Shown piece by piece: positions 39,810 to 52,377 of a DNA stretch of 64,000 nucleotides; positions within the stretch are counted from its first letter, which is position 1; each line of letters opens with the position of its first letter. The notes under the pieces were generated by a model. That model was not told where the DNA came from. It saw only the letters and a list, made by a program, of their open reading frames with translations, and ran no database searches. A program made the position numbers and the translations under genes. The stretch lies in the NCBI GenBank assembly GCA_018242295.1, contig JAFECE010000011.1, positions 186,001-250,000 of the forward strand, in the 5' to 3' direction. The DNA comes from Pseudomonadota bacterium (GTDB lineage: Bacteria; Pseudomonadota; Alphaproteobacteria; Rhizobiales; Hyphomicrobiaceae).

Positions 39810-39905
39810 GTGGTTGCGTTGACACGCTTCACCGCAATCGCTGCCCAATTTGGGCGTTTCCTCCCTAGACTTGGGCCGTTCGGCTTTCGGACGGCCTTCT
39901 TTATT
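39810..39905 (+). ncRNA. Small RNA copy 1, alpha-r8/mmgR (suhB-motif) like
   Basis: Structure: a first hairpin TTGCG...CGCAA (39814-39837) with an inner TGA/TCA extension, a single-stranded core GTTTCCTCCCTAGACTTG, then a terminator stem GGCCGTTCG/CGGACGGCC (39874-39896) ending TTCTTTATT. The core and terminator stem are shared base-for-base over 33 bases (39850-39882) with a second copy at 40080-40112. The CCTCCC core, the terminator and the place upstream of an inositol-monophosphatase gene match the mmgR/alpha-r8 family (formerly the suhB RNA motif) as I remember it. The 5' end is estimated. Confidence 0.68.
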
Positions 39906-40047
39906 GGAAACCGCCCCTCCCGCATCAGTTGAAAGCCGGGAAGAGGCAAAACGGCCTTTCGGCCGAGGCCCGCGTTTCAAGCCATGCAGCTCTGCGTAAA
40001 TCGCAATTGCCGATAATGCGCTGCACCTTTATTTTGTGCAGTGCGAT

Positions 40048-40140
40048 ATGCGAGCTCGGCTCGCGCTTCGCAGCCCTCCTTGGGCGTTTCCTCCCTAGAC
40101 TTGGGCCGTTCGTGAAAAATTCGGACGGCCCTTTTTCTTA
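40048..40140 (+). ncRNA. Small RNA copy 2, alpha-r8/mmgR (suhB-motif) like
   Basis: Second tandem copy: hairpin GCGAGC-TCG-GCTCGC (40050-40064), the same GTTTCCTCCCTAGACTTG core, then the terminator stem GGGCCGTTCG/CGGACGGCCC (40103-40131) followed by TTTTTCTT, a better termination tail than copy 1. The loop of the terminator and the 5' hairpin differ from copy 1, which argues for two separately kept RNAs. A further stem CGCTGCAC...GTGCAGTGCG lies just upstream (about 40018-40045). A 5' end near 40048 is an estimate. Confidence 0.68.
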
Positions 40141-40169
40141 AGTCATTTCCTTAACCTAACGCTGCCCGC

Positions 40170-41363: not shown

Positions 41364-41750
41364 ATGACAGCCAAGCCCTCCAGCCTGCCGATCCGCCGCA
41401 TCCTGCTCGCCGAGGATGACGAGTCCATGCGCGGTTTCCTCGTCAAGGCGCTCGAAAAAGCGAACTACGACGTCGTCGCCTTCGAGAACGGCGAGGATGC
41501 CTACGACCGTCTCAAGACAGAGCCGTTCACGCTCCTCCTCACGGACATCGTCATGCCGAAGATGGACGGCATCGAACTCGCCCGCCGCGCGAGCGAGATC
41601 GACCCCGATCTCAAGATCATGTTCATCACCGGATTCGCGGCCGTCGTTCTCAACAGTGAAAACCAGCCGCCGAAGGACGCCCGCGTCCTCTCCAAGCCGT
41701 TCCACCTCAAGGATTTGGTGCGCGAGGTCGACCGTCTTCTGGCGGTCTGA
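41364..41750 (+). CDS. cpdR: CpdR single-domain response regulator
   Basis: A 128-residue receiver domain without output domain. Asp61 ('LLLTDIVMPKMDG') is the phosphorylation site, with acidic Asp18/Asp19 ('LLAEDDESMRGFLVKALE'). The pattern 'DGIELARRASEIDPDLKIMFITGFAAVVLN' and 'VLSKPFHLKDLV' is diagnostic for CpdR. In its unphosphorylated form CpdR primes ClpXP for proteolysis of cell-cycle proteins; CckA-ChpT phosphorelay inactivates it. The extra seven residues at the N-terminus are unusual but minor. A tRNA gene follows after 85 bp. Confidence 0.95.
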   Translation: MTAKPSSLPIRRILLAEDDESMRGFLVKALEKANYDVVAFENGEDAYDRLKTEPFTLLLTDIVMPKMDGIELARRASEIDPDLKIMFITGFAAVVLNSENQPPKDARVLSKPFHLKDLVREVDRLLAV

Positions 41751-41835: not shown

Positions 41836-41910
41836 GGGCACTTAGCTCAGCGGTAGAGCACTACCTTGACATGGTAGGGGTCAGAGGTTCGATCCCTCTA
41901 GTGCCCACCA
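41836..41910 (+). tRNA. tRNA-Val (GAC)
   Basis: A complete 75-base cloverleaf: acceptor GGGCACT/AGTGCCC, D arm with AGCTCAGCGGTAGAGC, anticodon stem CTACC/GGTAG around loop TTGACAT (anticodon GAC), T arm AGAGG-TTCGATC-CCTCT, and encoded CCA. A partial, decayed copy of its 3' half lies 10.3 kb downstream at 52183-52233. Confidence 0.98.
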
Positions 41911-41914
41911 TCGG

Positions 41915-41939
41915 AACCATTGGTTTCGTTGGTTTTTTT
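41915..41939 (+). terminator. Terminator of tRNA-Val
   Basis: A short stem AACCA/TGGTT (41915-41919 with 41930-41934 region) leads into a run of seven Ts. It begins 5 bp after the tRNA CCA end. Confidence 0.55.
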
Positions 41940-42381
41940 CGGAATGAACTTGCCTTTCCTCGATTTGCCCCGTGCGCCGGTGCGGTGTCACCGTTGGGCT
42001 AACGAGACGTGACGCAAGACCCGCAGCTTTGCTGAAATCCACCCGATCGACGACAGGCTCCTCTCAGGTGGCCCATATCGGTTGGCGAGGATCTGGCTCG
42101 CACCCGGCCACCGGCTTACGCGCGTGGATCAAGCGATCTCCGCCATGCCTGAGTGTCTCGGGAATAATTTCCTGATTTATCTTCCTAAATTTCCCAGGCA
42201 TTGCCCCGAAAGTATCAATTCTACAACACTTCATTTCCCAACGAGTTCAAGGGGCCTCGGGAATATTGACCTAATATCCTCAAGAACTTTCCCTGCTTTT
42301 GGGAAAAAAGAGTCGCGATTGCTCGGTCACTGCTGAGGCAATGGTCCGAGGAATACGTGTCCGGGAGCACGGGGGTAGTTG
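41940..42381. other. Gene-free region before the TonB-dependent receptor
   Basis: About 440 bp, noticeably more AT-rich toward its end. It holds a small stem CTTTCCC...GGGAAAAAAG (about 42288-42311). I looked for a cobalamin riboswitch, often found before such receptors, and saw no convincing box. The receptor promoter should be here. Confidence 0.45.
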
Positions 42382-44961
42382 ATGTCAACGCGCATGGTCG
42401 CCATGGCGCCAGCAGTGGCGCTTGCATGCGCGACGTTTGGAGCATCAGCAGTTCTGGCCCAAGACGCCGGCGGGACAACGACGGGGCAGCCGGCAACCCC
42501 TCCGAACCAAACGACCGCCAATCCAAGCGGCCAACCTCCCGCACAGGCACCATCGAGCGGCGCGCCGAACACGGCATTGCCCGAGGTGCAGGTCATTCAG
42601 GAACAGCCGAAACCCAAGCCAGTCAAGCAGGCCGCCAAACCGAAGAAAGCGCCCGTCGCACAGGTGCAGGCGCCAACAACGCCGCCGGTGGAAGAGGGCT
42701 CCTCTGTCCTCGAGCCCACCCAGGTGAAGATGTCACCCGTCGGCGGCAGCGAAATTCCGATTGCGAAGGTTCCCGGTTCGGTCGGCACAGTTTCGTCTTC
42801 TGACGTCACGCGCAGTGGCACCATGGCGGTGCAGGATGCGCTTCAGTCTCGCATTCCCGGCGTCATCGTCAACAATCTGCAGGGCAACGATTTTCAAACC
42901 AACGTACAATTTCACGGCTTCGAGGCCTCTCCGGTTGATGGTGTTCCCCAAGGCCTGGCTGTTTATGAGAACGGCGTCCGGATCAACGAAGCGTTCGGCG
43001 ACGTCGTCAACTGGGATTTCCTGCCTTCCGTCGCGATCTCCGATATCGCGGTCATGACCAACAACCCAGCCTTCGGGCTGAACGCCCTAGGTGGCTCCGT
43101 CAGCATAACAATGAAGGACGGCTTCAACTTCCAAGGTGTCGAAACTGATTTCCGTATGGGCTCATTCGGGCGCGTACAGGGCTCAGTGCAGGCTGGCCAA
43201 CAGTTCGGTAACTATGCTGCCTACGTTGCCGTTGAGGACATTCATGATGACGGATGGCGCGAGTTCTCTCCGTCGAATATCCGACGCATATTCGCCGACG
43301 TCGGCTTCAAGAACCACGACGCTGAGTTCCATGCGAACTTTACGGGCGCAGATAACTTTGTCGGAGCCGTTGCAGCCTCACCGGTCGAACTGCTGGATCA
43401 GAGTTACAGTGATGTCTTCACCAACCCTCAGACGACCCAGAACGATATGGCCATGGGGTCGGTCAACGGGTCTGTGAATGTCACCGATACGCTGAAGGTC
43501 TCTGGTGTAAGCTACTATCGTAGATTCAATCAACATCACGTCGACGCCAACGGTTCGAATTCGGCGCCCTGTGCAAGCGACCCAAGCGTTCTCTGCTTCG
43601 ATAATCTTGATGGTACGACGACCGACCCACTTATTGATCAGCACGGCAATCCGGTTCTGACGCCGGCGGGCGGTGACAATTTCGTCGGCGAAATCGACCG
43701 CACATCGCAGCAGGCCGAAAGTTTCGGAGCCTCGCTACAAGGTGTCGAGAAGGGCAAAATCTTCGGGCACGGGAATCAATTCCTTTTGGGCGGCAGCATC
43801 GATCACGGCCGCGTCGGCTATCAAACCAATGCAGAAATCGGCAGCATCGGTCCCGAATTCGTCATCACCGGCGATGGCCAAATTGTTCAAAATTCAGACA
43901 TTCGCCCCGTCAACATCACCTCGACCAATACCTACTATGGCGTCTTTTTCTCAGACACCTTTGATGTCACTGACCGGTTGTCGCTGACCGCAGGCGGCCG
44001 TTTCAATTACGCGGACATCCGGCTTCAGGACAATACAGGCGCTGCACCACTACTTAACGGCGATAACAAATTCCAGCGCTTCAACCCGATGGCGGGAGGT
44101 ACCTATCAACTCGCTCCAGGCCTCACGCTCTACAGTGGGTATTCCGAAGCCAACCGCGCACCGGTCGCTGCCGAGCTTGCTTGCGCCGACCCCAACAATC
44201 CGTGCCTTGTTTCGAGCTTCCTAACTGCAGATCCGCCACTCAAGCAGGTTGTGTCGCGAACGGCCGAGGTGGGGCTTCGCGGTGAGATCAAGTCTCTCGA
44301 CAATCAGCGGATTAGTTGGAGTCTCGGCTACTTCCATGCCGTGAACAGCGACGACATTATAAATGTTGCGTCCTCTATCAATGGGAGAAGCTACTTCCAG
44401 AATGCAGGCAATACGCTTCGCGAGGGCCTCGACGCCAGCATCGATTATCGCAACGACCGCCTCTATCTCTTCGCCAATTATAATTTCACCGATGCGCGAT
44501 TTGAGAGCACGTTCGACGTCAACTCGCCCAACAACCCGCAGAACCCCTCTAATGGCGACGATTTCATTACGACGGTCCATCCGGGCGATCGCATGCCTGG
44601 AATTCCCCAGCACAGATTCAAGGCTGGCTTCGATTATTGGATCACACGCCAATGGAAATTCGGCGGAGACGTCACTGCGGCTTCTGACCAAATCTTTTTT
44701 GGCGACGAAGCAAACTTAAACACGCCGCTGCCAGGCTACGCCGTCGTGGATCTCCACACCTCCTACGACGTCACCAAGAACATTCAAGTCTATGCGATCA
44801 TCAATAACCTCTTCGACCACCACTACGCGACTTTCGGCAACTACTTTCAGCTCGATGACGCTTCAGCCGCATCGCTCGGTACAATTGATTTCAGTGACCC
44901 ACGAACCGTCGTGCCGGCTACGCCGCTTGCCGCTTATGGCGGTGTGAAAGTCAGATTCTAG
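42382..44961 (+). CDS. TonB-dependent outer-membrane receptor
   Basis: An 859-residue receptor that imports a scarce ligand using TonB energy. Parts: signal peptide (to 'AVLAQ'), a Gln/Pro/Thr/Lys-rich linker (about residues 30-110) containing a TonB-box-like 'LPEVQVIQEQ', plug domain ('VPGSVGTVSSSDVTRSGTMAVQDALQSRIPGVIV' region, 'NPAFGLNALGGSVSI'), and a 22-strand-type barrel ending in the canonical 'YGGVKVRF' (terminal Phe). The ATG at 42382 has GGGGGT upstream. Ligand unknown; siderophore, cobalamin or a metal chelate such as the lanthanide complexes used by methylotrophs are all possible. Base composition looks more AT-rich than the flanking core genes. First gene after tRNA-Val. Confidence 0.92.
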   Translation: MSTRMVAMAPAVALACATFGASAVLAQDAGGTTTGQPATPPNQTTANPSGQPPAQAPSSGAPNTALPEVQVIQEQPKPKPVKQAAKPKKAPVAQVQAPTTPPVEEGSSVLEPTQVKMSPVGGSEIPIAKVPGSVGTVSSSDVTRSGTMAVQDALQSRIPGVIVNNLQGNDFQTNVQFHGFEASPVDGVPQGLAVYENGVRINEAFGDVVNWDFLPSVAISDIAVMTNNPAFGLNALGGSVSITMKDGFNFQGVETDFRMGSFGRVQGSVQAGQQFGNYAAYVAVEDIHDDGWREFSPSNIRRIFADVGFKNHDAEFHANFTGADNFVGAVAASPVELLDQSYSDVFTNPQTTQNDMAMGSVNGSVNVTDTLKVSGVSYYRRFNQHHVDANGSNSAPCASDPSVLCFDNLDGTTTDPLIDQHGNPVLTPAGGDNFVGEIDRTSQQAESFGASLQGVEKGKIFGHGNQFLLGGSIDHGRVGYQTNAEIGSIGPEFVITGDGQIVQNSDIRPVNITSTNTYYGVFFSDTFDVTDRLSLTAGGRFNYADIRLQDNTGAAPLLNGDNKFQRFNPMAGGTYQLAPGLTLYSGYSEANRAPVAAELACADPNNPCLVSSFLTADPPLKQVVSRTAEVGLRGEIKSLDNQRISWSLGYFHAVNSDDIINVASSINGRSYFQNAGNTLREGLDASIDYRNDRLYLFANYNFTDARFESTFDVNSPNNPQNPSNGDDFITTVHPGDRMPGIPQHRFKAGFDYWITRQWKFGGDVTAASDQIFFGDEANLNTPLPGYAVVDLHTSYDVTKNIQVYAIINNLFDHHYATFGNYFQLDDASAASLGTIDFSDPRTVVPATPLAAYGGVKVRF

Positions 44962-45004
44962 GATCGCGGTCCCAAAACTCCTGGCATTCGAGAAGAGAAA
45001 TAAG

Positions 45005-45039
45005 AAAGGCCCGTGTCCCGCATATGGGCACGGGCCTTT
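45005..45039. terminator. Bidirectional terminator between the receptor and the DUF937 gene
   Basis: A long stem AAAGGCCCGTG(T)CCC / GGGCACGGGCCTTT with loop GCATAT. The arms begin with A-runs and end with T-runs, so it can terminate transcription from both converging genes. Confidence 0.85.
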
Positions 45040-45086
45040 CAGAACTGACGATAATCAGCTGATGTTCTCGCTTTGCTCTGCGTTGT

Positions 45087-46289
45087 TCAGGCTGTCGTTA
45101 GCGCATCGAACTGAGAGTGAACTTTGTCGATTGTCGGCTTTATGATTGCGCTCACCCCAGGAATGGCGAGCGCCTTGTCGAAGACCTGATCAAGGGCCGG
45201 TCTCGTTGCAGTGATCGTGTTCACGACCGTTTTGCGGGACTGAGCGGGAAGTTGATCGAGGAGCTTGCTCAGCCTGACAAAATCGTTCGCGGAATTTGTC
45301 AGCGGCGCCATTGCGGCTTGCGCTGAACTCACGTCTTGAACGCTGGCAACCGCCGAGCGCATGCTGGTCTCGGCGTTGGCGATTTGTGTGCCAACGTCGA
45401 CGTCACCGACTTTTATGCCACGCAGATTATCGAGCGCTGCGAAGGACGCGGGCATCGGGCCGAGACCCGCGGCGCCGGTGCTGGTCCCGGTGCTCGCCGG
45501 CGCCGTCGCCGGAGGAGGATTGGCGGCAGTCTCTGTTGGGCGTGGGCGGGCGAACCAGTTCCAGGCGAGGCCGCCGATTAGCAACGCCGCGAGCGCCGGA
45601 AGTACCCAGCCCCATGATTGCGAATATGGACTTCCCGACCGCTCCGAAAATCTCGGTGTCGGTGGTGGCGTTGTGCTGTAACTGGGCCTAGACGACCCGG
45701 AATAGTCAGTCGCTGCCGATGCGCTGCGCGTCCCGGCACCAAGGCCATCGAGTATGCCCGTATCGCTGAGATAATTTGAGAATCCAGCGGGAAGTGCACT
45801 CGCGATCTTATCTTTTTGTGAATTGAGAAGACTTGCCAGGCCCGTCGCATCGAGCCCACTCGCGCGCTGCTGCTGTCCCAACACGCCCATCACGACAGGT
45901 CCGAGCAGGCCCATAAGGCTTTTCGAGCCGGCATTTCCAATCCCCGCGTACTGACCAACTGCGTTGGTGAGTGCGGATGTGTTCGCGCTGCCGAGAAGAG
46001 ATGTCAGTGTGTTGGTACCGGATTCAATAATGCTCGACTGCGTAGAGCCGCCGAGCATGCTGCCTAAGCTCGAGAGCAATGTCGGCTGTTGTCGCGCGAT
46101 TGCGCCATTGAGCGCCTGAGCGCCATTGGGTCTGGATACGAGTGATGTGAACGCTGCTAATAGACCGGGGATACCTGCCTGTAGCGCTTTTTCTGTGAGT
46201 GTCTTGTCGAGGCCGAGGCTCGAAGCAATGCGCGATACCAGACTCGTGCTGAGTACCTGAGTAATGTTGGAGACCAAATCTAGAGACAT
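45087..46289 (-). CDS. DUF937 protein with membrane segment
   Basis: A 400-residue protein. Residues 1-185 form a DUF937 (YidB-like) helical domain rich in Gly, Ser, Leu ('QAGIPGLLAAFTSLVSRPNG', 'LLGPVVMGVLGQQQRASGLDATGLASLLNSQ'). A Ser/Pro linker leads to one membrane segment (about 226-246, 'WVLPALAALLIGGLAWNWFA'), a Thr/Ala/Pro spacer and a C-terminal helical domain (about 285-400). The function of this family is not established. A GGGAG site precedes the ATG. It follows cysC on the same strand but with a 367-bp gap, so it is probably a separate unit. Confidence 0.8.
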   Translation of the reverse strand: MSLDLVSNITQVLSTSLVSRIASSLGLDKTLTEKALQAGIPGLLAAFTSLVSRPNGAQALNGAIARQQPTLLSSLGSMLGGSTQSSIIESGTNTLTSLLGSANTSALTNAVGQYAGIGNAGSKSLMGLLGPVVMGVLGQQQRASGLDATGLASLLNSQKDKIASALPAGFSNYLSDTGILDGLGAGTRSASAATDYSGSSRPSYSTTPPPTPRFSERSGSPYSQSWGWVLPALAALLIGGLAWNWFARPRPTETAANPPPATAPASTGTSTGAAGLGPMPASFAALDNLRGIKVGDVDVGTQIANAETSMRSAVASVQDVSSAQAAMAPLTNSANDFVRLSKLLDQLPAQSRKTVVNTITATRPALDQVFDKALAIPGVSAIIKPTIDKVHSQFDALTTA

Positions 46290-46656
46290 GGGGCAACTCC
46301 CTTATCGGTTGTCCCCCCGACACGGAATCCCCCTCGTTACATAGGCGCCGTTGCGGTTTGGCGCTGATCTGGACCATGTTGATCAGCGTGCTTGCGGTAT
46401 AGGCATATGCGCGCAAATCTGACGATAGTCTAGGCGGCTTCGGTTGAGAAATTTAGTGCCAGCCAAAGCGAAGGATCATCGCGTTTTCGTTTAAGAAAAA
46501 CTAACCAGGGACTTTGGGGTCCGATTCTGGCGAAGCTCCCGCGTTTGAGCTTCGTAATTTCAACTTTACATGCATTTTTTCTAAGCAAAGAGGCGCCGGC
46601 TACTCAGGACGTCCGTCTCTCACTCAAGCAAACATTCGTCACGCTTGTCCGCAACT
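46290..46656. other. Gene-free region between cysC and the DUF937 gene
   Basis: Contains two clear inverted repeats: GCTGATC/GATCAGC (about 46362-46388), in the DUF937 leader, and CGAAGCTC/GAGCTTCG (46531-46554), a perfect 8-bp stem about 100 bp past the cysC stop that may act as its terminator although it lacks a T-run. No coding sequence supported. Confidence 0.5.
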
Positions 46657-47328
46657 CTAGTCGGCCTGATCGGAGGTTGATTTTTCGCTTGTCACAGGTT
46701 GCCGCAGAGCTTGCAGCATCTCTTCCAGGAGATCGCTTAGCGGAGCCCGCCCATCCAGCACGATCTCGGCGCTCTCGGGCGGCTCGTAGGCCGACGATAT
46801 TCCTGTGAAGTCCGGAATGAGGCCCTGACGTGCCTTCTTGTACAGGCCCTTCGCGTCCCGCTTCTCGCAGGTTGCCAGGGGGGTATTGAGATATACCTCA
46901 ACAAACTCGCCGGGCTCGAACAGCTTACGAGCTTGTTGTCTCTGCGTGATGAGTGGCGAGATCAGCGAGACGATGACGATCAAGCCCGCATCGACCATCA
47001 GTTTTGCGACTTCGGAAACTCGTCGCACATTCTCCATGCGACCGGAGTGAGAAAAATCGAGGTCATTGCAAATGCCATCCCGGCAGCGATCGCCATCGAG
47101 CACGTAGGTGTGGCGTCCCGATTTATAGAGAGTTTCGTCAAGGAGATTGGCGAGGGTTGTCTTTCCGGCACCGGAAAGGCCGGTGAACCAAATGCAGCGG
47201 GCGTTCTGCGCTTTCAATTCCGACCGCTCAATTTTCGTAATTGCCGAGTTTTTCCACTGCAGCTCGACAGGTGAGCGAGCGGTGAGCTTCGGCATGCCGA
47301 ATGAATGAACTTCCGGTAACGGCTTCAT
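46657..47328 (-). CDS. cysC: Adenylylsulfate (APS) kinase
   Basis: A 223-residue P-loop kinase that phosphorylates APS to PAPS, the activated sulfate donor. Seen: N-terminal 'WKNSAITKIERSELKAQNAR', P-loop 'WFTGLSGAGKTTLANLL', 'YVLDGDRCRDGICNDLDFS' (family usually DGDN; here Arg), 'GRMENVRRVSEVAKLMVDAG' and 'EVYLNTPLATCEKRDAKGLYKKARQGLIPDFTGI'. The ATG at 47328 is preferred to one 19 codons upstream because GGGAGGAAGG lies just before it. It stands alone, not fused to CysN, and follows cysQ and a sulfotransferase on the same strand, pointing to PAPS supply for sulfation. Confidence 0.95.
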   Translation of the reverse strand: MKPLPEVHSFGMPKLTARSPVELQWKNSAITKIERSELKAQNARCIWFTGLSGAGKTTLANLLDETLYKSGRHTYVLDGDRCRDGICNDLDFSHSGRMENVRRVSEVAKLMVDAGLIVIVSLISPLITQRQQARKLFEPGEFVEVYLNTPLATCEKRDAKGLYKKARQGLIPDFTGISSAYEPPESAEIVLDGRAPLSDLLEEMLQALRQPVTSEKSTSDQAD

Positions 47329-47418
47329 GCCTTCCTCCCGGCGCGGTCGCGCCAAAGCCAATGGCAAACCGAAACTTGCATTCATGTCTCGTCGTGCCCC
47401 AACGGTTCCGAACCCTGC

Positions 47419-48267
47419 TTACACGCTGACTTCCAGCGCCGAAACGCGCAGCAGTTCGCGCAGCGCTTCGACGCTGCCGCCGAACGAAACGAAGTACGGA
47501 TTTTGCAGAGCCTTCTTCTCCGGGCGTTTTGCTCCGTATTCAAGCTCCCGGCCATCGCACGTCAAAGTGCAACCTCCGGCGCCGCGTAAAACGGCGTCAC
47601 CCGCTGCCGTATCCCACTGCATGGTCGTTCCGAAGCGGGGATAGATATCCGCTTCTCCCGTCGCCACAAGACAGAACTTCAGCGACGATCCAACCGACAA
47701 TTTCTTGCCGATCGGAAGCTTGTCCAGGAAGTCCTTGGTTGCAGCATTCTCGTGCGATGCGCTTGCCACGGCGGATAGGGCGCTCGCTGGCGCGGCCGTG
47801 ACGATGCGGGACCGCTCGCGGATGTTCAGATCATTCGAGAGATGGCATTTGTAGGACATGCTGTCATCGCCGCTGAAGAGTTCGCCGCGTGCTGGCGCGA
47901 CGACAACGCCCAGTTGCGGGCGTCCGTTCTGGACCAGGCAAATGTTCACGGTGAAATCCGCACTCCCGCGGACGAACTCCTTCGTGCCGTCCAGCGGATC
48001 GACAAGGAAAAACGTTTTCGCGGAGGCGCCGCTGAAATCGCCTGCGGAGGCCGCTTCCTCGCCGACGATGGGAAGCGATGAATCGATCCGTTGCAGTTCT
48101 CGCGTGATCAGTTCTTCTGCGAAGAGATCGGCGTCGGTAACCGGACTGCCGTCGCCCTTGTTCTGAACGGCCGCGCCGCGTCGCTGAACCTCCAAGATGA
48201 GCCGGCCAGCGGCGAGTGCAATGCTCTCGATCTGCTTTAAGAGGGGAGGCGCAGTTACCTCAGTCAT
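47419..48267 (-). CDS. cysQ: 3'(2'),5'-bisphosphate nucleotidase
   Basis: A 282-residue member of the inositol-phosphatase superfamily that hydrolyses PAP, the by-product of PAPS-dependent sulfotransfer or sulfate reduction. Seen: 'KGDGSPVTDADLFAEELI', 'LPIVGEEA', 'FFLVDPLDGTKEFVRGSADFTVNICLV' (metal motif) and 'MQWDTAAGDAVLRGAGG'. Complete. Between the sulfotransferase gene (46 bp upstream) and cysC (90 bp downstream), completing a sulfation cycle. Confidence 0.95.
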   Translation of the reverse strand: MTEVTAPPLLKQIESIALAAGRLILEVQRRGAAVQNKGDGSPVTDADLFAEELITRELQRIDSSLPIVGEEAASAGDFSGASAKTFFLVDPLDGTKEFVRGSADFTVNICLVQNGRPQLGVVVAPARGELFSGDDSMSYKCHLSNDLNIRERSRIVTAAPASALSAVASASHENAATKDFLDKLPIGKKLSVGSSLKFCLVATGEADIYPRFGTTMQWDTAAGDAVLRGAGGCTLTCDGRELEYGAKRPEKKALQNPYFVSFGGSVEALRELLRVSALEVSV

Positions 48268-48313
48268 TCGATACCATCCGACTGGCGACGTTCATTTTGC
48301 TGTGCTGTCCCAT

Positions 48314-49153
48314 TCACCTGGTGCCCGCAAGCGTTAACCCAAATCGGCGCGCGATCCGTCGCTCGACCTGATACTTTGGCCGCACGAATTCGCTCAGCAC
48401 AAAGCTGCTTTGAGCGCGGCTATCGAAAGGTTTGATTTCTTTCCGCACCCATCGGCTCCATAGGTAATGGTCCAGTGCGGTGCGTGATTTCAGTAATGCG
48501 CGATCCGTTGCGGAGAGATCGCCCAGTCGGACGATTTTCCAATCCGTCCTCGCCTGATGCTCTTCGGCCGAATTCCGTCGCGGCGCTTCGGGTGAAATGC
48601 CGATTTCGGCCGATATGCTTCTTATGAGTGAATCCGCCTCGCGGATGTCGGCGACATAATCGATGGAGCCAAGAACTTCGTCGAGAATCTCAGCCTTTCG
48701 TTCGTCGGATAATCGGACCAATTGAGCCCACGGCATTTCCAGCCATCGCTCAAGCAGGAAATGAGCGACTGGATTGACGCGCGTGGCGCGCAAAAACAAT
48801 GAGAAGGAATAGGCGTGCAGACCTTCGATCAGGTAACGCATCATCCGGTAATTATAGTAAGAAAGCATCATACTTTCGGGTTCGCGGAGGATTATCGAGC
48901 GGACGATGCGACGGTCCGGAAACAGATCCTCCGCCGATTTGCCGATGAAATGGCCGGAGATGGCTTTGATCTCGTCATGCCGCTCGGGAAGTTTCCGGCG
49001 GTATTTGTAAGTGAAAAGGTCCAATGGAAATTTTCGGGTTCGCTTGGGAGCAATCCAAACCTGTTCGTCCCCCAGTTGATCGATCAAATGTTTCTCAACG
49101 GTCGTGCCAGCGCACTTCGGGACGTGGATATGAACTAGGAGCGGTCTCGCCAT
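48314..49153 (-). CDS. Sulfotransferase family protein (PAPS-dependent)
   Basis: A 279-residue cytosolic protein with a sulfotransferase P-loop-like motif near the N-terminus, 'VHIHVPKCAGTTVEKHL' (5'-phosphosulfate loop), and a 3'-phosphate-binding segment 'RSIILREPESMMLSYYNYRMM'. The remainder is helical and basic, suiting a carbohydrate acceptor. Homologues sulfate polysaccharides or lipids; the acceptor is unknown. It heads a same-strand set with cysQ and cysC. The nearby glycosyltransferase and Kdo hydroxylase make LPS or another surface glycan a reasonable target (inference). Confidence 0.82.
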   Translation of the reverse strand: MARPLLVHIHVPKCAGTTVEKHLIDQLGDEQVWIAPKRTRKFPLDLFTYKYRRKLPERHDEIKAISGHFIGKSAEDLFPDRRIVRSIILREPESMMLSYYNYRMMRYLIEGLHAYSFSLFLRATRVNPVAHFLLERWLEMPWAQLVRLSDERKAEILDEVLGSIDYVADIREADSLIRSISAEIGISPEAPRRNSAEEHQARTDWKIVRLGDLSATDRALLKSRTALDHYLWSRWVRKEIKPFDSRAQSSFVLSEFVRPKYQVERRIARRFGLTLAGTR

Positions 49154-49256
49154 CGTGATCTTTGCGGATTGGTGATTATAACAGAATGCAACTAAGCCAT
49201 ATTGCCTATGAGTAGACTATCGCCGGAATAGGCTATTCGGCCATTATAACGGACAT

Positions 49257-49377
49257 TTTGGGGCGAGGTTTCTGGGTATGCGTGTCGTGAGGGGCACGCC
49301 AAGGGGAGTAACTTCCCTGACGCCGCCCGAAGCATAACCGCGTGACCGCTAGAGACCCGTCGGGCCTCAGTTTTTTT
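49257..49377 (+). ncRNA. Candidate small RNA or leader with three hairpins
   Basis: In a 550-bp gene-free gap there is a plus-strand series of stems: GCGTGTC/GGGCACGC-type (49280-49299), GGGGAG-TAA-CTTCCC (49303-49317) and GAGACCCG/CGGGCCTC (49352-49368) followed directly by TTTTTTT (49371-49377). A TATAAC (49245-49250) could be a -10 element, giving a transcript of about 120 bases; no good -35 is seen. It may be a free small RNA or an attenuated leader of the Kdo hydroxylase gene 327 bp downstream. Not matched to a known family. Confidence 0.5.
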
Positions 49378-49703
49378 GGGATAGGGCTGGCTTCGCGGCC
49401 CAACTGTTGGTGCGTGATCCGCCGGTCGGGGCGACATTTAGCTGTGGAAAAGCGGGGGCAGGGCCCGCGAATAGCCAAATGGCCAGTTGTGTGGATCCAT
49501 CACCAACGTGTTTTTGTCGGGTGGGAAATCCTGGCGATTTGCCGGTGCCCCGAGTTTTGATGCCACGCTGATTTTAAATACGCGACGACAACGCATTTTT
49601 TGAGCGCACGCAGAGCGTGAATTTTCGAGGCGTTATTTTCGCCTCACACGACGAAGTTCGAATTTTTTCAAAAAAGCACGTCCTCGATATTGGGGGTATA
49701 CTC

Positions 49704-50618
49704 ATGTCTTCATTTGAATCCTCGCGCAAAGTCTTTTCCTCACTCGACACCTTTGACGCGACAGCGTGGAATAGCTCATTCACATCCGAAGACCGCGAGC
49801 GGGCAGTGGACGGCCTCGAGAACGGGCACGTGCTTTATTTCAAGTCCCTGGCGTTCCCGTTCGAGTCCGAAGAGAAGGTCTTCCTCTCTTCGACGTGGTC
49901 CGATCAGGAAGCAAAAAACATCAGCTATGATCCTACCGAAGGCCGGTTGCGCGGCGCGAAGATCGAGGGCGTCAACGGTGACATGCTGGCTGGCATGATG
50001 CGCCGCTATGCGTCGGACGCGCGCCAACTCCTGCAGGGCCTTCTGCCGTCCTACTCTCCAACGCTCACGTTGGCGCGCACGAGCTTCAGGCCGCACGAAG
50101 TCGAGGGACGGAAAGCCGCGTCCTATCGCAAGGATGACACTCGGCTTCACGTCGATGCCTTTCCCTCCCGGCCGAACCGAGGTGCGCGCATTCTGCGTGT
50201 CTTCACCAACATCAACCCTACTGACAAACCACGGGTGTGGCAGATTGGAGAGCCGTTCGAGGCCTACGCCAGCCGCTTTTTACCGACCGTGTCGCGTCCG
50301 CTGCCGGGGCTGGCGCAGCTCGAATCCATCCTTGGCATCACCAAGGGGGTGAGGACGCCGTACGATCATATCATGCTGCACTTGCATGACCGGACGAAGG
50401 GTGACGCGACCTATCAGCGAGAGGCGCCGCGGCAAGAGGTTGCCTTCGCAGCCGGCAGCACCTGGGTGGTCTTTACGGACCAGGTCCTGCACGCGGCGAT
50501 CAGCGGCCAATTCGTCTTGGAGCAAACGTTCGAGCTTCCCGTTGCCGCGCAACGTCAGACGGAAAGGTCGCCGTTGCGCGTTCTCGAACGTCTGACCGGC
50601 CGAGAGCTCGCTGCGTAG
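49704..50618 (+). CDS. Kdo hydroxylase family protein (Fe(II)/2-oxoglutarate dependent)
   Basis: A 304-residue protein of the 3-deoxy-D-manno-octulosonic acid hydroxylase (Kdo3/KdoO) family, which hydroxylates Kdo in LPS inner core. Seen: 'DDTRLHVDAFPSRPNRGARILRVFTNINPTDKPRVWQIGEPFE' with the H-X-D iron ligands in 'LHVDAF', and 'STWVVFTDQVLHAAISGQFVLEQTF' with the distal His and the 2-oxoglutarate-binding region. The ATG at 49704 has GGGGG upstream; a longer frame starts at 49617 without one. A strong inverted repeat follows the stop. KdsD for Kdo synthesis lies at 22 kb. Confidence 0.85.
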   Translation: MSSFESSRKVFSSLDTFDATAWNSSFTSEDRERAVDGLENGHVLYFKSLAFPFESEEKVFLSSTWSDQEAKNISYDPTEGRLRGAKIEGVNGDMLAGMMRRYASDARQLLQGLLPSYSPTLTLARTSFRPHEVEGRKAASYRKDDTRLHVDAFPSRPNRGARILRVFTNINPTDKPRVWQIGEPFEAYASRFLPTVSRPLPGLAQLESILGITKGVRTPYDHIMLHLHDRTKGDATYQREAPRQEVAFAAGSTWVVFTDQVLHAAISGQFVLEQTFELPVAAQRQTERSPLRVLERLTGRELAA

Positions 50619-50646
50619 CTATTCGAACCGCGTTGGACGATGTGGC

Positions 50647-50695
50647 GGGGACGCGCTGAACGGCTCCTGCGGGGAGGTGCCATCAGCGCGTCCCC
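50647..50695. terminator. Strong inverted repeat after the Kdo hydroxylase gene
   Basis: A perfect 13-bp stem, GGGGACGCGCTGA/TCAGCGCGTCCCC (50647-50659 with 50683-50695), with a GC-rich inner hairpin. It starts 28 bp after the stop codon. There is no T-run, so it may be a factor-assisted terminator or a processing/stability structure. Confidence 0.55.
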
Positions 50696-50776
50696 CTGCA
50701 CTCGGCTGACGAGGAAGAGCCTCTTCCGATTTCCATTCTGGTGCTTCTGTTCCGTTCCTTTTGTCAGATTTGAAGA

Positions 50777-52036
50777 TTGGATCGTGTTTTGAACATACTC
50801 AGTCTTTCCACCGCCGATATGCCGTGTGGCGTTGGCGACGCCAATAGGTCGCTCAGAGTTGCGATGCTGGAAGCGGGTAACCGGTACGACATATTCGCAA
50901 TCAACGATGACATGCGCGACGCTCGGTCTGAGTGCTTCGATGAGTTCGTCCGCCGCCTGAAATCGTACGACGCAGCGGTCATTCAACACGAGCACAGCTT
51001 TTTCGGTCCCGGCATCAAGCAATCGGCTCGGAACTTCACGCGCCTGCTCGAGCGCATTCGCGTGTTGGCAAAGCCGTGTGCGGTGATCTTTCACACGAAT
51101 TTTCCGGCGCGGACGAAGGCATCGAGGACGTTCGCGCGCTATTTTTCGACAGGCGAAGTGGTCCGCCGAAGAATGTTGCGGGCGATCAATTCTAATCCGC
51201 TGATCCGCGTCATCGTGCACGGCGAGGCCAGCTGGAAGTCTTTCCGCGATTACGGGATTGACGGGGATAAGCTGCTCAAGGTGCATCTTCCGATACCGAG
51301 AGTGGAGTGCGTGCCACCTCGAAATCCGAGAGATGACGAAATCACGCTGGGCATTTTCGGGTTCATCGCTCACTACAAGGGGTATCGGACGGCGCTGGAG
51401 GCCATGCTGCATCTGTCGCCGCGTTTCAAGCTCGTCATTATGGGCAACAAGCATCCATTTTCCCCGAATGATCTCACCCTCAATAACATTCAGCGAATGC
51501 TGAAGACCGGCGTCTGGGATGGAAAGCGGGTACAACCCGTGACGGCAAGCGACGTGTCTCCGAACTTGAGTTCGCGGGTGAAGATCCTCGGCTTTGTCGA
51601 AGATCTGGATCGGGCCTTTTCGGAGGTCGACATCGTCCTCGCGCCCTATCTCGACAAATTTCCTGCCGGATCCGCGTCGCTCGCAGACTCGCTGGCGCGC
51701 GGGAAGCCGATCATCGCTTCGGCAACGCCGCCGTTCGTGGAAATTCAAAGGGACGGCAATTGCCTGAAGCTCGTCGCGATGAATGCGCCATTCGAACTCG
51801 CGCATGCGATCGAGGAGCTGGCCACTGACGACGTCGAGCGGGCGAGGCTCTCGGCGGCTGCCATCGAGTTCTCGCGCCAGAATACCTGGGATCGTTTCGC
51901 AAGACTTCTGTCACGTACGTTGATGGAGCGCGCGCACGTTTCATCAGGGGCGGTGAGTATGACGAATGGGGCCCTCCAGGCCGTTAACGAACGGCTAGAT
52001 CACGGTGGAGAGGTGCGCTCGGCGTCGCGCCCGTGA
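50777..52036 (+). CDS. Glycosyltransferase, GT4-type (GT-B fold)
   Basis: A 419-residue protein with a GT-B pattern: N-terminal '[28 protein letters not shown]' (acceptor side glycine-rich start), a linker, then the C-terminal donor domain '[25 protein letters not shown]' and '[32 protein letters not shown]' with the conserved Glu position replaced by a Ser/Ala run. Likely adds a sugar to a surface glycan. Translation seems to begin at TTG (50777, or a second TTG four codons on), with a GAAG motif upstream. Sugar and acceptor unknown. Confidence 0.8.
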
Positions 52037-52182
52037 ATGGGGGGCTGCCCCGCGTCAAAAAGGCATGTTTCGGCCCTCGGGGTGTTCCCGGCAGGTTCGT
52101 CAGGCGCCTCAACACGACTTTTCGCAGGTGCGCCCTTGTTTTCCTGGGATTTGGCAGGTACAAGCCCGGCTTCCATCTCTTT

Positions 52183-52233
52183 TTGACATGGCAGGGGGCG
52201 GAGGTTCCGTTCGAGCTCTCCCAGTGCCCGCCA
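52183..52233 (+). pseudogene. Decayed 3' half of tRNA-Val (possible attachment-site remnant)
   Basis: From the anticodon loop onward the sequence parallels tRNA-Val at 41866-41910: TTGACATGGCAGGGG versus TTGACATGGTAGGGG (14 of 15), then GAGGTTC shared, then AGTGCCCGCCA versus AGTGCCCACCA. Six extra bases interrupt the T arm, so it cannot be functional. No 5' half is recognisable upstream. It has the same orientation as the intact tRNA, 10.3 kb away, as expected of the far end of an element integrated at a tRNA gene, or of a decayed duplicate. Confidence 0.7.
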
Positions 52234-52251: not shown

Positions 52252-52377
52252 ATGAAAGTTAGAAACTCTTTGAAGTCCCTGCGCTCACGGCACCGCGATA
52301 ATCGCGTCGTCCGCCGTAAGGGCCGGGTCTACGTCATCAACAAGACTCACCGCCGCTTCAAAGCCCGCCAGGGTTGA
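52252..52377 (+). CDS. rpmJ: 50S ribosomal protein L36
   Basis: A 41-residue basic protein, '[18 protein letters not shown] ... [16 protein letters not shown]', matching the alphaproteobacterial L36 without the zinc-binding cysteines (the C-minus form). Complete. Upstream 18 bp away is the tRNA-Val fragment. A hairpin GTCGCGC/GCGCGAC (52382-52402) follows the stop but lacks a T-run. Confidence 0.95.

Follow-up and report, generated by a model that had tools for sequence, protein, structure and literature searches.

How an intact tRNA-Val gene and a degenerate copy of its 3' half came to enclose more than ten kilobases of DNA, and from where the ribosomal protein gene rpmJ is now transcribed, are the questions raised by this locus. 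The window, meaning the whole stretch of 64,000 nucleotides that was analysed, corresponds to positions 186001–250000 of contig 2 of the window's own genome, G000, and sequence comparison indicates that the interval is very probably an old, immobile integrated element in tRNA-Val. The intact tRNA-Val(GAC) gene occupies positions 41836–41910 on the plus strand (ARAGORN; Rfam RF00005, 69.8 bits) and its left neighbour is a cpdR-like response regulator gene (41364..41750, plus strand; PF00072, E 2.6e-21), which adjoins tRNA-Val in the mapped relatives as well. Approximately 1.2–1.5 kb before cpdR the suhB/mmgR small RNA family (RF00519) has a pair of matches in tandem, at 39836–39911 and 40066–40146, scoring 61.9 and 62.9 bits. 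The gene rpmJ, encoding ribosomal protein L36, lies at 52252..52377 on the plus strand and is the right neighbour of the site where this is empty. Directly before its leader, at 52183–52233 on the plus strand, is the displaced and decayed 3' half of tRNA-Val (attR), while attL comprises the 3' 46 bp of the intact gene (41865–41910, plus strand), its limits following a 46-bp repeat seen at both ends of an element in genome G020.

On the same strand as the tRNA, the fragment at 52183–52233 can be aligned to its 3' half, beginning in the anticodon loop and running through to the CCA. The anticodon-side segment, TTGACATGGcAGGGG against TTGACATGGtAGGGG, matches at 14 of 15 positions and is followed by the T-arm and then by the acceptor/CCA end, three small insertions being carried by the fragment. 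Its local alignment score of 49.5 was reached by none of 13,890 background windows (best 39), these being 110-bp windows on both strands of 16 20-kb stretches of the same contig and of the rest of the window, and by none of 1000 shuffles, which confirms the pairing of tRNA-Val(GAC) at 41836 with a 3'-half fragment in the same orientation that an earlier note on this DNA had described. Just 3' of the tRNA, in the left end of the element, a terminator-like hairpin followed by a T-run is located at 41912..41928 on the plus strand; a hairpin scan returned 2 in the stretch against a shuffle mean of 0.7 (sd 1.0), which is weak alone, and sequence like this hairpin also occurs at other left ends. Composition was tried as proof of an island and was not relied on. 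The deviation in GC and 4-mers, computed as the earlier note had proposed, is only mild: the island has 57.1% GC where the chunks average 60.0 (sd 1.9), 3 of 37 chunks being equally low or lower, and its 4-mer distance is exceeded by 4 of 37 chunks.

The positions of cpdR, tRNA-Val, rpmJ and a neighbouring TPR gene were mapped in relatives, 22 genomes forming the genus set. The TPR protein of the window is 96% identical to that of Hyphomicrobium sp. AWTP1-10 (G014), the closest named relative seen. Comparing the interval across genomes, as the earlier note had proposed, revealed an empty site in nine of the 22 (G002, G004, G006, G008, G009, G011, G016, G017 and G021), where rpmJ follows tRNA-Val after 18–25 bp, and an occupied site in the other 13. 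The filled gap extends from ~0.8 kb in G019 to ~52 kb in G013 and measures 10.3 kb in the window, a range from which G020 was left out, as the flanks of its site lie on different contigs. Beyond the genus set, tRNA-Val and rpmJ are likewise separated by short gaps (G028, 22 bp; loci L119–L124, 26–34 bp). Because short gaps are present in these nine genomes and outside the genus set, the empty state was taken as ancestral. Relatives thus neither carry the same genes at this place nor lack the adjacency of tRNA-Val and rpmJ.

A second element occupies the same tRNA-Val in G020, placed in front of the old island. On contig 29 of that genome a tyrosine recombinase domain adjoins tRNA-Val, and the other end of the element is found on contig 7 at 35666, where the 3' half of the tRNA recurs as an exact 46-bp copy and is followed by a left end resembling the old-island left end of G003. 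The integrase is split by the contig break, its N-terminal part starting contig 7 and its C-terminal part lying on contig 29, and the element would measure ~36 kb if the two contigs adjoin. The left ends of G000 and of this element are similar with a z of 17.8 over 120 bp and the right ends with a z of 11.6 (0/200 shuffles as high). Because the left and right ends are homologous and the att site is the same, the window island is best read as a relic of the G020 element's family, and on this homology the two are of one element family. Together with the empty sites, this sibling element supports the integration at a tRNA 3' half that the earlier note had put forward. The same note had held that no integrase is present and that the element would be old or trimmed. 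The former does not stand, since a decayed 3' end of a tyrosine integrase gene remains at 41913..42115 on the minus strand and aligns with the 3' end of the G020 integrase (score 141; maximum 63 in 200 shuffles); an old element is also the reading preferred here. A clearer remnant is preserved in G003 (57% over 89 aa). None of the PF00589 matches listed in G000 (7 of 9) lies inside the island. Left ends similar to that of G000 (z 6 to 60) were found in G014, G003, G020 (both), G015 and G007, and the left end of G010 is weakly similar (3/200 shuffles as high). The left ends of G018, G001, G012, G019, G034, G005, G013, G025 and G030 are unlike that of G000, with a z of 0.3 for G018 and 0.0 for G001 although these belong to the same clade.

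Integrases also adjoin tRNA-Val in G025 and G030, which are of other genera. The frame of the G020 integrase enters the tRNA gene antisense, where a TAG in the anticodon stem terminates it, and the G030 integrase matches it with the same tail. Followed outward from the opposite end, the reading frame continues without a stop for 40 more residues in G020 and for 9 in G030, but for 0 in G025. As the frame differs at the two ends, the C-terminal end of the integrase may be altered by excision. Relatives of the G030 integrase at E 1e-15 were detected in 7 of 103 family genomes, G030 and G020 included, and those of G024 and G026 are near tRNA-Thr(GGT). The search of plasmids (3 records) and phages (10 records) gave no closer integrase source, all being below 60% identity. 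Pfam detected no relaxase, coupling protein or type IV secretion genes in the seven proteins of the window's cargo, nor any in the 20 ORFs scanned of the 29 listed on G020 contig 7 with at least 100 aa.

The cargo of the window begins with a TonB-dependent receptor (42379..44961, plus strand; PF00593, PF07715), found at the site otherwise only in G014 (61–62%) among the loci compared, and a DUF937 protein (45087..46289, minus strand; PF06078), whose counterparts are at the site in G014, G003, G001 and G020. Three minus-strand genes follow: adenylylsulfate kinase CysC (46657..47385; PF01583, TIGR00455 above cut-off), 3'(2'),5'-bisphosphate nucleotidase CysQ (47419..48267; PF00459, TIGR01331 above cut-off) and a cysQ-paired, sulfotransferase-like protein (48314..49153). 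The right part of the island holds, on the plus strand, the Kdo hydroxylase KdoO (49617..50618; PF11004, E 3e-111; NF053719 above cut-off) and a group 1 glycosyltransferase (50777..52036; PF00534). Pfam and NCBIfam thereby uphold the gene list of the earlier note except for its sulfotransferase, a weak call matching PF03567 at E 0.07, below the cut-off, and its candidate RNA is without support, only the tRNA reaching an Rfam gathering score in the island. The sulfotransferase-like protein has no PDB sequence relative at E 1 and its structure model was unusable (pLDDT 38). Its matches occur in 10 of 60 genomes, three of them at the tRNA-Val site. KdoO is present in just six of the 60, the window's own included, and in all six it is at tRNA-Val. 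Because PAPS-making and PAP-clearing enzymes stand beside the sulfotransferase-like protein, together with a Kdo hydroxylase and a glycosyltransferase, the predicted functions of these five genes suggest surface glycolipid modification.

The cargo at the site differs among relatives. For other genomes it was read from partial Pfam scans, covering 10 ORFs each of G001, G013 and G025 and 20 of G020. Folate C1 genes are at the site in G001 (Hyphomicrobium facile) and sugar-nucleotide genes in G034, while the G020 element carries betaine/ethanolamine-type genes and, on contig 7 (L136:5756-13210), a C5 cytosine methylase, a HerA helicase and a Vsr-like nicking endonuclease together with two large proteins of 658 and 531 aa with no or weak family matches, which form a candidate defence cluster. 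In G025 the presence of a P22-like portal, a capsid protein and an integrase identifies the insert as a prophage. At the far end of this prophage (L078:1715-1788) a further tRNA-Val(GAC) is predicted by ARAGORN, so that two tRNA-Val-like genes flank it.

It is an even call whether homologous recombination among neighbours brought in much of the cargo once the element was dead. The TonB receptors of G000 and G014 are 61% identical while the neighbouring TPR gene is at 96%, and in G001, G003 and G020 KdoO has the opposite orientation and 68% identity. Pairs of the sulfotransferase-like gene and cysQ are also found away from the site in G015, G007, G017 and G010 (L164–L167), accompanied by cysC in G017. 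Such late recombination, however, leaves the ends unexplained, and it adds to the integration of an element rather than replacing it.

The number of integrations bears on a further alternative. In a tree of the flanks (26 genomes, 3004 columns), G018, G000, G014, G001, G003 and G020, all occupied, form clade I, and its sister clade II comprises the occupied G010, G015, G007 and G012 together with the empty G016 (support 0.68). The displaced tRNA 3' half before the rpmJ leader is significant in 8 of the 13 occupied genomes (0/1000 shuffles each), namely all six of clade I plus G007 and G012, and by the same shuffle test is unrecognisable in G010, G015, G019, G005 and G013. Related elements may have integrated separately in the two clades, instead of one ancient insertion followed by turnover, and we regard this as a serious possibility while leaning somewhat against it. 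G007 and G012 at their right ends, and G012 at its left end as well, are unlike G000 (z 0.6–1.2), G016 is empty within clade II and none of the window's cargo genes turned up at the site in that clade. In contrast, G010 and G015 have right ends like that of G000 (z 13.3 and 20.7), and similarity to its left end is seen in G015 (z 11.9) and G007 (z 8.0). The T-stem of the intact tRNA-Val was considered as a mark of integration and discarded, since its alleles differ between G000 and G014 despite their common left end; AGAGG/CCTCT and ACAGG/CCTGT, a paired change, alternate among sister genomes (window 41836–41910 against L061:758-832). In G013 (L075–L077) a flagellar/chemotaxis cluster of ~50 kb, with no recognisable att fragment, separates tRNA-Val from rpmJ and is probably a rearrangement, and G005 (L072–L074) has ORFs of sizes similar to those of this interval.

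The consequence of the insertion for rpmJ was analysed through the DNA that now precedes the gene, which has one match in each of the 22 same-genus genomes. As the 18–25 bp of the empty sites leave no room for a promoter, rpmJ was probably read from the tRNA-Val promoter ancestrally. Immediately before the decayed tRNA half, the right end of the element contains a 41-bp promoter-like block (52134..52174, plus strand) with CTTGTT at 52135 and, after 18 bp, TACAAG at 52159. Between the clades its mean identity is 82% over six genome pairs (G000, G018 and G003 against G010 and G015), the limits of the block having been set after the alignment was seen. H. facile DSM 1565 (G001) has the block too. 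Controls gave 49% at fourfold sites and 55% at third positions of the TPR gene, which is the next gene, and 46% for the shuffled block; third positions of rpmJ are 69% identical, leaving a smaller margin. Identity falls to 66% in the adjacent 24 bp upstream and to 47%, the random level, in the further 86 bp. A sigma-70 scan had no match in the block, nor any before tRNA-Val itself. We propose that the block, which looks to be under selection, fits a promoter of rpmJ.

The insertion would have separated rpmJ from tRNA-Val and the promoter that probably served it, and rpmJ would now be transcribed from a promoter in the right end of the element, its 5' leader containing the decayed tRNA half. 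We lean slightly towards such a takeover because of the 82% identity of the block against 49%, the single copy of rpmJ in every genome of the genus set and the hairpin after the tRNA; the negative sigma-70 scan, the third positions of rpmJ and the block-related sequence in the right end of the G020 element weaken it. That element is not before rpmJ and has a related right end all the same, which, like the sigma-70 result, would suit a block that is an integrase-binding arm, rpmJ being transcribed from elsewhere. Such an arm is nevertheless unlikely, for the block is kept between lineages whose islands show no intact integrase, and it is conserved against the level of the 86 bp upstream and of the fourfold sites. 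The promoter reading extends tentatively to the whole right end, which, with the displaced tRNA half, might have been domesticated as promoter and structured leader of rpmJ, thereby retaining the relic. All 10 rpmJ-leader relics that were folded, six of them from clade I and thus of common history, are stabler than the mean of simulated decay, 4 of the 10 falling below 5% (fractions 0.003 to 0.167), and paired double changes are visible by eye, such as ATGGT/ACCAT to ATGGC/GCCAT in G000 and G014. A selected hairpin in this leader was set aside and is no more than a hint: for 8 of the 10 leaders RNAalifold gave a different, poorly supported fold with two double-change pairs and a covariation term of +0.88, and the G010 and G015 stretch is not significantly tRNA-like.

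The origin of the whole interval by integration is favoured because of the empty sites, the displaced tRNA half, the G020 element, the homologies of the ends, the G003 integrase remnant, the integrases beside tRNA-Val in G025 and G030 and the differing cargo. It is weakened by the mild composition, the fragment being unrecognisable in five occupied genomes, the flagellar/chemotaxis cluster in G013, the left ends of G018 and G001, the empty site of G016 and the contig break within the G020 integrase. A partial tandem duplication of tRNA-Val, with the genes between accumulating by means other than a mobile element, would account for the common orientation of fragment and tRNA and for a window island that lacks a full integrase but is highly improbable, the break coinciding with the anticodon-loop edge used by the integrase-bearing G020 element, both ends being homologous to those of that element and integrase remnants persisting in the window and in G003. 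According to the integration reading, a tyrosine integrase would have recombined the 3'-half copy of tRNA-Val carried by the element with the chromosomal tRNA-Val(GAC). The element would have supplied a new 3' half, leaving the tRNA intact, and the original half of the host would have been pushed next to rpmJ. Later the integrase would have decayed to its 3' remnant while cargo was gained, lost and inverted.

Within one genus the site displays a series of states: empty, filled, stacked (the G020 element before the older island) and fossil. It looks like a place of exchange for metabolic cassettes, of C1 folate, betaine/ethanolamine and sulfation/LPS type, among Hyphomicrobium and its relatives. 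It is also a case, open to experiment, in which a mobile element would part a ribosomal gene from the promoter of a tRNA and go on to provide a replacement. An earlier description of a tRNA-Val/rpmJ island site was not found in the literature searched, most subscription journals being outside its scope. An island in a tRNA gene is a known kind of thing, and its decay state is here unusually well resolved. The islands catalogued by Islander, as set out in the sections of PMC4383910 drawn on here, have a regenerated tRNA at one end, a displaced fragment at the other and a tyrosine integrase, and tandem arrays are recorded. The window island resembles them in its intact tRNA and displaced fragment, and differs in that its fragment is decayed and its tyrosine integrase reduced to a remnant. 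As the filter described in those sections tests for an integrase gene, Islander would probably miss the window island. Symbiosis ICEs of Bradyrhizobium, bipartite and of ~0.5 Mb, likewise use a tRNA-Val gene (PMC9174649, PMC9239051), so that an alphaproteobacterial tRNA-Val gene as integration site is common to them and to the window island; rpmJ is unmentioned in the main text of either paper. For the rescue of host genes by the promoter of a decayed element, the part of PMC3430984 relied on here provides a published precedent in SpyCI of Streptococcus pyogenes strain Manfredo, a decayed element whose promoter restores host genes that had been cut off. SpyCI occupies the 5' end of mutL and has its promoter within the int pseudogene, whereas the putative promoter of the window island is in the far end of the element, upstream of rpmJ.
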